From: Thermosynechococcus sp. HN-54
GTDB taxonomy: Bacteria > Cyanobacteriota > Cyanobacteriia > Thermosynechococcales > Thermosynechococcaceae
Direction: 5' to 3'
Assembly (NCBI RefSeq): GCF_023650955.1
Contig: NZ_CP098039.1
Location: 2,480,001 to 2,544,000 of the forward strand
Length of the DNA: 64,000 bases
The position numbers and the translations under genes were made by a program. The notes beneath the pieces are model-generated. The model ran no database searches. It had not been told where the DNA came from and saw nothing but the letters and a program-made list of their open reading frames with translations. Below, in pieces: positions 19,860-22,359 of this stretch; the first letter of the stretch is position 1; every line of letters begins with the position of its first letter.

Positions 19860-19900
19860 AATTATCATTTTGCAAAAAATAACAGACAGTTCCAAAATTC

Positions 19901-19919
19901 TGAAGTAGAATTTACTTCA
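19901..19919. promoter_or_regulatory. Palindrome TGAAGTA-N5-TACTTCA upstream of the exonuclease-ATPase gene
   Basis: A perfect 7-bp inverted repeat with a 5-base centre lies in AT-rich DNA, 65 bp before the GTG of the exonuclease-ATPase gene and about 40 bp after crr6. Its size and symmetry suit a dimeric repressor site. A partial copy (TGAAGTGAAA) lies about 20 bp further on. A weak hairpin terminator of crr6 is the alternative, but there is no T-run. Confidence 0.4.
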
Positions 19920-19984
19920 ACCTAGGGCTTCTAGCTTATGAAGTGAAACGTGTATGATAACAGACCTACGTTCGGAGTCTAAAG

Positions 19985-22315
19985 GTGTCTTATCTTGTTA
20001 TTGATACAGAAGGAAATCCTCTCAAGCAAGTTGCTGTCATTGATGCAAAAGGTCATCTTATTTATGAGGCCTATACTGAATCAGCAAATGATAAGCATGC
20101 CAATAAAAAGAAATTTCACGAAATCAGTCATGACTTAAAGTCTCTCTTAAATGGACATATATGTGTTTTTCACAATGCAGGTGCAGACCTACAAACATTA
20201 AGATCTAGCTTAGATTTAGACGGTGAACTTAAATATGAGTGTACAGAACAGCTAGCACGGCGACTATTCCCGAGCTTACCCTCTTATGGACTAGCAGAAT
20301 TGTGCACCTACTTTAAGATTAATCATCAGGGCAGGGGATTCACGTTAAGTAACGCTCATGATGCTCAATATGATGCTAGATTTACTTATGAACTTTATCG
20401 ATATCTTTGCCGCTACAAGCTCAAACAGGAAAAATATCCTAATGTTTTTAGTAGTGTTCGAGTAGATACACCATTTCAAGATTTTCCTGATGCATTTAAG
20501 GTACAAGAGCCACAGTATCGCTATATCTATCAACTAGTTCAAGAAATTCGTGAGGATAATAATCTTCAGAGTCAAGGAGTGGTTATTTTGGGTGAAGCAG
20601 GCAGTGGCAAAACCCATATGGCCATGCGAATTGCTCAACAATTGCTTAAATATAACCGCTTATTTTTTATTCTACAACCAGCTCATGAAAACAATGTTCT
20701 CTATCACATTTACAGTAGTGTTTTGCAATCTTTAGTGCAACCTGTAGAGAAGGGATATACACAGTTGGAGTATTTTCTTTCCAATATATTCTTCAGTATT
20801 CTGAGTAAATATCAAAATAATGAAGATGACCGATGGTTATTAGAAAAACTATCAAAAGATAGATTATATCTGTTTTGTGAAAGTGGAAATAATGAAACTA
20901 AGACCCGTGAAGAAAGGATTGAAAGACTTGAAAAATATTTACTACGTTGGCATAATTCTCAGCGATTTAATAACTTATTTTCTGAAATTTTTATTAAAGG
21001 ATTAATAAAATATTGTCGTTATCGCAGAGAATACTATCGTGATATTATCATTCGATGGTTAGCAGGTAGTGGAATTGAAGAAGATGAAGAGACTAAAATT
21101 GGCCTACCTGATTGGGGAGAAACACTAACAAGCAACGATTTTGCATTGCAAGCACTTATTAGTCTTTCAGTTCTATCTACCTTAGATCAGCCACTACTGA
21201 TTATTTTTGACCAACTTGAAGGATTAGCTAACCCTAATAATAGACCAATTTTGCTAAAACTAGGTGAGGCTTTGCGGGAGTTAATGACAAATCTCCGCAA
21301 TACATTATTTATTCTCAATTTATTTCCAATTACTTGGCAGTATTTTCAGGATACCCTTGAAAAATCAACAATTGAGCGTCTTAGTGCCAATACTATCTCT
21401 ATACAAGAGCCAACAGCAGATGAAATTTTGGCTATCTTAAATGAACGCCTTAAGCCTGCAGGTGTTTTTGCAGAAGCTTTTTTCAACTTAGAGGAATTAC
21501 ATCAAATTGTTCATTCTGAGTCAATTCGCAGCTCATTAATTTTGGCTGCAAACCTATATCGTAAGATCGTCAATGAGATTAATTTTTCTGATCTTTCTAT
21601 TGGACATTACCCAAATGCTATTTCGGAAGTAACACAAGAGGTGCAGAATCTAATTATAAAAATCAATGATCTGGAGCAGCGGATCAAAATTTTAGAAGAA
21701 AGAACAATTTCAAAAATATCTTTTGAAGAAGAATTGTATAAATTTTTAAGGGAAAAGAAATATATTCTAGCTAAAGATTATGGAAAAATTGGCTATCAAA
21801 ATAATTATCATGAGTTAGGAGTACTAAAGTGCGTTTTAAATTATCTTCAAATTGTCAAACCTAATATTAGTCTTACACAGTATGCTATCCAAATGCCAAT
21901 TAATGATCAAATCATCTACTTAGGGCATTGTAAAAAATATGTAATAATTATGAATAATCCAGAAACAAGTAGAAAACCAACTATTAATGTTAATGCTTGT
22001 TTTCGAGCAATTCAAAGCTTTCTTGCTGATAAAAAGGAAGCAACATTATTTATTTATCGAGATAATCGGATTCGTTTTCCTCAATCAAACAATTCTCCTG
22101 CCGCTAGAAATTGGAGATCACTCCAACATCGGTTTGGTCATCGGTTAGAGATACGACATATTAATGTGAACGACTATATTTGGTTACATCTTTTCTATGC
22201 AATGATAACTGCGATTGAAAATAAGGAATTTGAAGGAGATGTCAGACCTGCTGAAGCCGTTAACTTATTCTTGAAAAAGTATCCGAATGAGTTTTGGAGT
22301 TATCTTTTTAGATAG
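19985..22315 (+). CDS. DEDDh exonuclease fused to a STAND-like P-loop ATPase, candidate defence protein
   Basis: 776 residues from a GTG with GGAG nine bases upstream; the start is fixed by the first exonuclease motif lying at residues 7-9. The N-terminal domain (1 to about 145) is a DnaQ-type DEDDh 3'-5' exonuclease: Asp7-Thr-Glu9, His63-Asn64 with Asp68, and His125-x4-Asp130. Next comes an ATPase with Walker A GEAGSGKT (203-210) and Walker B LLIIFDQLEG (404-413), of the DQxE type seen in STAND proteins. A coiled coil runs from about 545 to 575, and the C-terminal 200 residues match nothing I recognise. Base composition is strikingly AT-rich, with no HIP1 octamer, unlike its neighbours. It stands alone on the plus strand. 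Nuclease plus signalling ATPase plus a variable end resembles Avs-like phage sensors, which is inference. Confidence 0.78.
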   Translation: MSYLVIDTEGNPLKQVAVIDAKGHLIYEAYTESANDKHANKKKFHEISHDLKSLLNGHICVFHNAGADLQTLRSSLDLDGELKYECTEQLARRLFPSLPSYGLAELCTYFKINHQGRGFTLSNAHDAQYDARFTYELYRYLCRYKLKQEKYPNVFSSVRVDTPFQDFPDAFKVQEPQYRYIYQLVQEIREDNNLQSQGVVILGEAGSGKTHMAMRIAQQLLKYNRLFFILQPAHENNVLYHIYSSVLQSLVQPVEKGYTQLEYFLSNIFFSILSKYQNNEDDRWLLEKLSKDRLYLFCESGNNETKTREERIERLEKYLLRWHNSQRFNNLFSEIFIKGLIKYCRYRREYYRDIIIRWLAGSGIEEDEETKIGLPDWGETLTSNDFALQALISLSVLSTLDQPLLIIFDQLEGLANPNNRPILLKLGEALRELMTNLRNTLFILNLFPITWQYFQDTLEKSTIERLSANTISIQEPTADEILAILNERLKPAGVFAEAFFNLEELHQIVHSESIRSSLILAANLYRKIVNEINFSDLSIGHYPNAISEVTQEVQNLIIKINDLEQRIKILEERTISKISFEEELYKFLREKKYILAKDYGKIGYQNNYHELGVLKCVLNYLQIVKPNISLTQYAIQMPINDQIIYLGHCKKYVIIMNNPETSRKPTINVNACFRAIQSFLADKKEATLFIYRDNRIRFPQSNNSPAARNWRSLQHRFGHRLEIRHINVNDYIWLHLFYAMITAIENKEFEGDVRPAEAVNLFLKKYPNEFWSYLFR

Positions 22316-22359
22316 TTATAGATTAGTCCAATAGTATTCGTAAGGGCTTAATTATTAGA

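Follow-up and report, generated by a model that had tools for sequence, protein, structure and literature searches.

The window analysed here (positions 1-64000, a stretch of 64,000 nucleotides from a Thermosynechococcus genome that consists of a single 2.71-Mb contig) carries at 19985..22315, on the plus strand, a gene of 776 open codons whose product joins an exonuclease to a predicted AAA+ ATPase and a putative restriction endonuclease (REase)-like domain. The question raised by this locus is whether a protein of this make-up defends the cell against invading DNA on its own, as a sequence-only reading had proposed, or has another role. The open reading frame named in that reading is real: it begins at a GTG codon, a GGAG that reads as a likely ribosome-binding site (19974..19977, +) lies 7 nt before it, and the start is aligned with the starts of homologues, for example MSYLVIDTEG in the homologue L037.

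Residues 1-150 (19985..20434, +) form a DEDDh (DnaQ/PolC-type) 3'-5' exonuclease domain. Pfam RNase_T was matched above its cut-off, the PADLOC DEDDh model was matched at 1e-13, a profile match to PolC/DnaQ structures was obtained, and comparison of these residues of an AlphaFold2 model with the PDB returned DnaQ/PolC exonucleases with Z about 16-17; RNase T and ISG20 were also among the structural matches. Alignment with homologues placed motif I (D7-T-E9) at 20003..20011, motif II (H63-N-A-x-x-D68) at 20171..20188 and motif III (H125-x4-D130) at 20357..20374, all on the plus strand. The window protein thus has the catalytic D, E, D, H and D of the DEDDh exonuclease superfamily, and the complete set of residues reported earlier is present, with the amendment that the catalytic five are D7, E9, D68, H125 and D130, while H63 is conserved yet outside the catalytic set. 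The exonuclease and Walker motifs are intact at the residues first given for them and invariant across the first 34 homologues, and the DEDDh residues are kept in the 52 full-length members of a second set, except for one D68E. A PADLOC match to PDC-S48 was set aside, since it spans the exonuclease only; the name PDC-S48 was not found in the literature searched.

Structure and profile comparison assigned residues 151-530 (20435..21574, +) to the ORC/Cdc6/TnsC-type AAA+ ATPases with a helical lid. The whole protein was modelled by AlphaFold2 with a pLDDT of 83.8 and a pTM of 0.82, and residues 151-530 of the model matched ORC2, Cdc6 and TnsC in the PDB with Z 15-16. The domain opens with an NPF-like motif (NVF in the window protein) that is common to distant relatives, and homologue alignment located Walker A (GEAGSGKT, residues 203-210; 20591..20614, +) and Walker B (DQLE, residues 409-412; 21209..21220, +), whose residues are kept in 67/67 members apart from a single case in which the first Walker A glycine is replaced (G203A). 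Also invariant in 67/67 are R465 (21377..21379, +), which lies at the base of the last core strand and is a candidate arginine finger, and R515 (21527..21529, +), a sensor-2 candidate. A winged helix after the AAA+ lid is absent from the model, in which a coiled coil and an alpha/beta domain follow before the protein ends. As modelled, the middle of the protein is an ORC/Cdc6/TnsC-type AAA+ ATPase and not a STAND ATPase.

The lid is followed by a fast-evolving helical linker that is probably a coiled coil, as judged from the model and dN/dS (residues 531-585; 21575..21739, +), and by residues 586-776 (21740..22312, +), which the model, the family consensus and structural matches suggest to be a degenerate REase-like domain. 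The C-terminal 200 residues had been described as unrecognised; this holds for sequence, as Pfam, NCBIfam, PHROG and PDB sequence searches returned no family for them, and does not hold for the predicted fold. When the C-terminal domain of a typical member was modelled by itself, the pLDDT was 92.7 and the elements ran alpha, three strands, alpha, strand, alpha, strand, alpha. The structural matches of this domain were mostly REase-like (EcoT38I, Can2, Cdn1, BstEII, XisH and the Avs4 N-terminus, and further HerA-DUF, LmuA, Cap4, Shedu and FokI) and included defence nucleases; their Z values were 4-6.2, and the fold call is therefore only moderate. Strands 2-3 of the consensus lack the D...ExK signature, so the domain, in which R692-D693 is conserved, is read as catalytically degenerate; with moderate confidence, it looks like a diverged and inactive REase-like fold. 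Estimates of dN/dS showed purifying selection in all three domains (mostly about 0.05-0.2), the linker alone being fast. The values for the C-terminus (0.07-0.18) correspond to a pace like that of the exonuclease, and adaptive evolution of this region was not seen. The proposed variable end is consequently not a hypervariable one; it is predicted to be an alpha/beta, REase-like domain with no repeat sensor.

The gene is a recently acquired one-gene islet. It is the sole content of an AT-rich inserted segment (19860..22359, with boundaries uncertain by about 20 bp) that is absent from eight congeneric genomes and has 33.8% GC, compared to 53.7% in the rest of the window. The GC content of the gene, likewise 33.8%, is about 14 standard deviations off that of other 2331-bp stretches of the window (mean 53.8%, sd 1.4, minimum 50.7). 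Across the family, GC is on average 4.5 points lower in the gene than in its own flanks, with 11 points as the second-largest deficit, so the 20-point deficit of the window gene is exceptional. Both flanking genes are found in 11/11 genomes of the genus and are adjacent, a few tens of bases apart, in eight of the 10 other species; relative to these eight, the window contains an extra ~2.5 kb holding just the exonuclease-ATPase gene, which occurs in the window genome only (1/11) and is missing from all 10 other species. A low-GC insert of 2.5 kb thus splits a gene pair that abuts in 8/10 congeners, which argues for recent acquisition of a single gene, as had been suspected, and presence among close strains is patchy. 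Terminal repeats, a transposase and a recombinase were looked for at the insert and none was found; mobile-element boundaries for the insert, lacking terminal repeats or a transposase, were dropped. The sequence-only reading had also invoked the lack of the octamer GCGATCGC, said to be carried by every neighbour. The window contains 91 copies of this octamer, against an expectation of about 1, but the nearby accB, NifU-like, 196-aa and ndhH genes are also without it, and an octamer-free gap of 3 kb is expected ~1.2 times per window under a Poisson model. Its absence, which is not beyond chance, therefore adds nothing to the GC evidence and was rejected as a sign of foreignness.

Homologues share ~30-43% identity and, at a threshold of E below 1e-80, are full-length or near full-length in 30/386 cyanobacterial species (about 8%). 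Further homologues are encoded on PLSDB plasmids of Synechococcus, Nostoc, Calothrix and Tolypothrix. A profile-guided scan of a genome collection returned 91 stretches, mostly from cyanobacteria, the non-cyanobacterial members being from Thiomargarita, Thioploca, Parabeggiatoa, Campylobacterota and Desulfamplus; a plain, non-profile search of the genome contig collection with the window protein gave no match, and no phage homologue was matched by tblastn of phage records or by a scan of viral contigs. The window protein is a long-branch outlier (branch length 2.55, median 0.17) whose neighbours in the tree are the cyanobacterial L037 and L038; it keeps all catalytic residues but deviates at several conserved positions, with R450T and N519I at positions kept in >90% of the family. 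Disruption was noted in three copies (L107, L129 and L130), two of them through frame changes that split the gene and the third apparently through an insertion that separates the exonuclease from the ATPase. Outside the exonuclease and the P-loop, the protein is not covered by any curated family of Pfam, NCBIfam, PHROGs or PADLOC. Each domain by itself is ordinary; judged by the libraries and open papers that were searched, their combination is new.

Several members lack the exonuclease and start at about residue 150. These comprise a monophyletic Thiotrichaceae group (L133, L134, L139, L141 and L143-L145), a Xenococcaceae pair (L125 and L127) and one Desulfamplus protein (L136), and were seen to adjoin housekeeping genes (proS or eno, for example). 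One Thiomargarita encodes the exonuclease in an overlapping ORF of its own. The exonuclease-free lineages retain the ATPase motifs and R692/D693; together with the split member, this indicates that the ATPase and the C-terminal domain are the constant core and the exonuclease is detachable, and suggests that the exonuclease may not be the essential activity. A swapped effector in the exonuclease-free members was considered and rejected, as they have no replacement domain and their N-terminus is merely shorter. Two sulfur-bacterial genome bins contain both a long and a short form (L093/L133 and L104/L134), and these could possibly form mixed oligomers.

The surroundings of family genes differ between plasmids and chromosomes. 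Among plasmid settings, 5/5 have defence or defence-candidate genes within three genes. A Thoeris-type ThsB (E 1e-71) and a macro-domain gene lie beside the family gene on plasmid p11801_1 of S. elongatus PCC 11801 (L031); a type IIG restriction-modification (RM) enzyme (3e-282) adjoins it in L033, DUF262 and DISARM drmABC in L070/L036, and DUF262 on the Nostoc plasmids L032 and L035 and the related contig L066, and HerA-NurA is close to it in L034. The p11801_1 plasmid is itself a 33-kb defence plasmid that also encodes an Avs2 homologue. On two S. elongatus plasmids, parA or parA/parB is beside the family gene, and the two family proteins are closely related. Chromosomal neighbours are mostly housekeeping genes and vary from lineage to lineage. 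When 132 near and 148 far neighbours were compared coarsely by PADLOC, no clear defence enrichment emerged, and a spot check of ten chromosomal neighbours revealed no clear defence system. No HerA partner is beside the window gene, and when a HerA-like part was compared with all family neighbourhoods only L034 was matched, weakly. Directly downstream of the family member in L080 (12497-17518, +), a 1,674-aa protein was noted whose N-terminus is DEDD-like and which contains two helicase parts, one like DpdF and the other like UvrD/GajB. Homologues near restriction genes, one of the supporting findings that the sequence-only reading had named, occur on plasmids. The findings that it had named as contrary, a conserved position in most cyanobacteria and a C-terminal match to a housekeeping replication or repair family, were not encountered, although some lineages do share a chromosomal position beside housekeeping genes.

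On balance, by a slight preference, these data describe a DNA-processing machine that is complete in one protein, belongs to a family as yet without a name and most likely serves in defence against invading DNA; by the same joint reading, it is related in design, as a one-gene form, to the ORC/Cdc6-inactive-REase counter-invader ATPases, which work elsewhere with HerA and separate nucleases. Mechanistically, ATP-bound AAA+ subunits would oligomerise through R465 on DNA, the likely substrate. The degenerate REase-like domain is predicted to help bind or recognise a DNA target or a partner, the DEDDh domain would then probably degrade the captured DNA from exposed 3' ends, and the outcome would be loss of the invader, whether phage or plasmid. 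We infer the likely role in defence from the acquisition, the patchiness, the plasmid company and the kinship of the gene, not from chromosomal islands. Of the single-gene defence proposed earlier, the exonuclease-ATPase fusion stands and defence is plausible because plasmid copies adjoin DISARM, Thoeris, type IIG RM, DUF262 and HerA-NurA genes; the mostly housekeeping chromosomal settings do not bear it out, and these neighbours, the shared positions, the exonuclease losses, the moderate Z values behind the REase-like call and the long branch of the window protein were all counted against it. A bolder formulation can be offered tentatively: the protein would be an immune system not described before, a single polypeptide whose ORC/Cdc6-type AAA+ ring places its own DEDDh exonuclease on invading DNA. 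One gene would then do the work of four or five in HerA-capture systems, and the system would have spread through cyanobacteria and giant sulfur bacteria in part by way of defence plasmids.

The housekeeping settings also bear on a different reading, by which the protein takes no part in immunity and is an accessory factor of DNA repair or replication-fork maintenance, its AAA+ domain delivering a proofreading-type exonuclease to damaged DNA. The closest folds are indeed those of replication proteins (ORC/Cdc6 and the PolC/DnaQ exonuclease), purifying selection is strong in all domains, and housekeeping neighbourhoods are stable in several lineages; however, the gene is found in only about 8% of cyanobacterial species, has been gained and lost, has plasmid copies beside defence genes and matched no named repair family, and we regard such a role as rather unlikely. 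DEDDh folds do not tell RNA from DNA substrates, and with RNase T and ISG20 among the structural matches the exonuclease could in principle act on RNA, as those enzymes do, under regulation by the ATPase. The best matches are nevertheless DNA proofreading exonucleases, and the ORC-type ATPase and REase-like fold point to DNA, which makes an RNA-directed nuclease the least probable of the readings.

The earlier comparison with Avs-type sensors drew on the order of nuclease, ATPase and C-terminal domain. As an Avs/STAND-type sensor-effector, the protein would sense a phage protein with its C-terminus and activate the exonuclease to kill the cell or the phage. Avs3 chains do appear in the Foldseek list (E 2e-3, rank 8), below the ORC/Cdc6 chains, and the P-loop gave weak Avs2 and NACHT/nSTAND profile matches; however, the nSTAND and NACHT profiles scored below the Pfam cut-offs, the STAND sensor motif (sensor strand LNLFP) and the winged helix-turn-helix (wHTH) are lacking, R465 and R515 are invariant, and the C-terminus is a 190-aa REase-like domain that evolves as slowly as the exonuclease, with no repeat sensor. 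Since its defining features were tested and did not appear, and the predicted fold is of the ORC/Cdc6/TnsC type, this layout was not borne out and is quite unlikely. A gene for maintenance of plasmids or other mobile elements, guarding its own element or attacking rival plasmids, would fit the parA or parA/parB neighbours on the two S. elongatus plasmids and the fact that ORC/Cdc6-TnsC-type ATPases are common in mobile elements (PMC10853773). Most copies, however, are chromosomal, without recombinase or partition genes, the two par-adjacent proteins are close relatives, and the window insert has neither transposase nor repeats; this role is very unlikely.

Should defence against invading DNA be the role, the gene would be a compact one-gene system in a phylum whose phage defence is poorly explored. 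It would also offer a simple model of the way in which recognition of DNA is linked to its degradation by ORC/Cdc6-type ATPases, which form the cores of BREX and HerA-capture systems. If not, it would be an unrecognised accessory DNA-maintenance enzyme uniting replication-initiator and proofreading folds. Through the naturally occurring versions that lack the exonuclease or have it split off, the part played by the nuclease is open to direct testing.

Among known systems, Avs1-4 resemble the window protein in holding a nuclease, an ATPase and a C-terminal domain in one polypeptide; the window protein differs in its ORC/Cdc6-type rather than STAND ATPase, its lack of a TPR-like sensor, its much smaller size and its exonuclease in place of the usual effectors. 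Gram-positive DinG with an N-terminal DEDDh exonuclease also fuses this nuclease to an ATPase, which in DinG is a superfamily-2 helicase and here is of the AAA+ type; the DinG model matched only residues 34-142 (39.5 bits, cut-off 789), with no superfamily-2 helicase part. BrxC/BrxD of BREX are likewise ORC/Cdc6-clade AAA+ proteins that serve DNA-based defence, but the domains appended in the window protein are others, the BrxC/BrxD profile PF10923 is absent from its Pfam list up to E 10, and no BREX system was seen next to the window gene.

The ATPase is homologous to ~700-aa NPF-motif cyanobacterial ATPases (hhalign 99.4%, E 2e-21; 22-25% identity). They belong to a distant, recurring operon (L163, L164 and L166-L169) that encodes a ~285-aa protein, a DEDD exonuclease (joined to a PD-(D/E)XK nuclease in L163) and the NPF-type ORC ATPase; L167 has three ATPase copies in tandem, and no PADLOC system name fits the two proteins of this operon that were tested. 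The operon shares with the window family the link of a homologous NPF-motif ATPase to a DEDD exonuclease, and differs in encoding the exonuclease separately; this exonuclease is of another DEDD subfamily (DNA_pol_A_exo1) and in L163 carries a Cas4/RecB-like nuclease domain. A related ORC-type ATPase is fused to a HerA-like translocase in a 1,096-aa protein (L171:2120-5407, +), upstream of which a 215-aa protein is encoded. The PADLOC mad8 model matches the HerA part of this fusion at 5e-29 and only the P-loop of the window protein, and membership in MADS was dropped.

The nearest described kind is that of ORC/Cdc6 ATPases with an inactive REase between AAA+ and wHTH, which occur in mobile neighbourhoods beside HerA/FtsK and active REases, at times joined by a 3'-5' exonuclease, and have been argued to be counter-invader systems (PMC10853773). 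The window family appears to share with them an ORC/Cdc6-type AAA+ domain followed by a putative degenerate REase-like domain, a 3'-5' exonuclease, which is a recurring partner there, and partly mobile, defence-associated settings. For the part after AAA+, REase-like structures dominate the matches, at Z <= 6.2, and comparing its profile with that of the C-terminal region in the distant relatives gave no significant result. The window family has no HerA/FtsK, C-terminal wHTH or second active REase; lacking HerA and wHTH, it was not filed as a member and is regarded as a variant in design, in which the DEDDh exonuclease is fused N-terminal to the ATPase in one gene where the counter-invader systems use an operon (PMC10853773).
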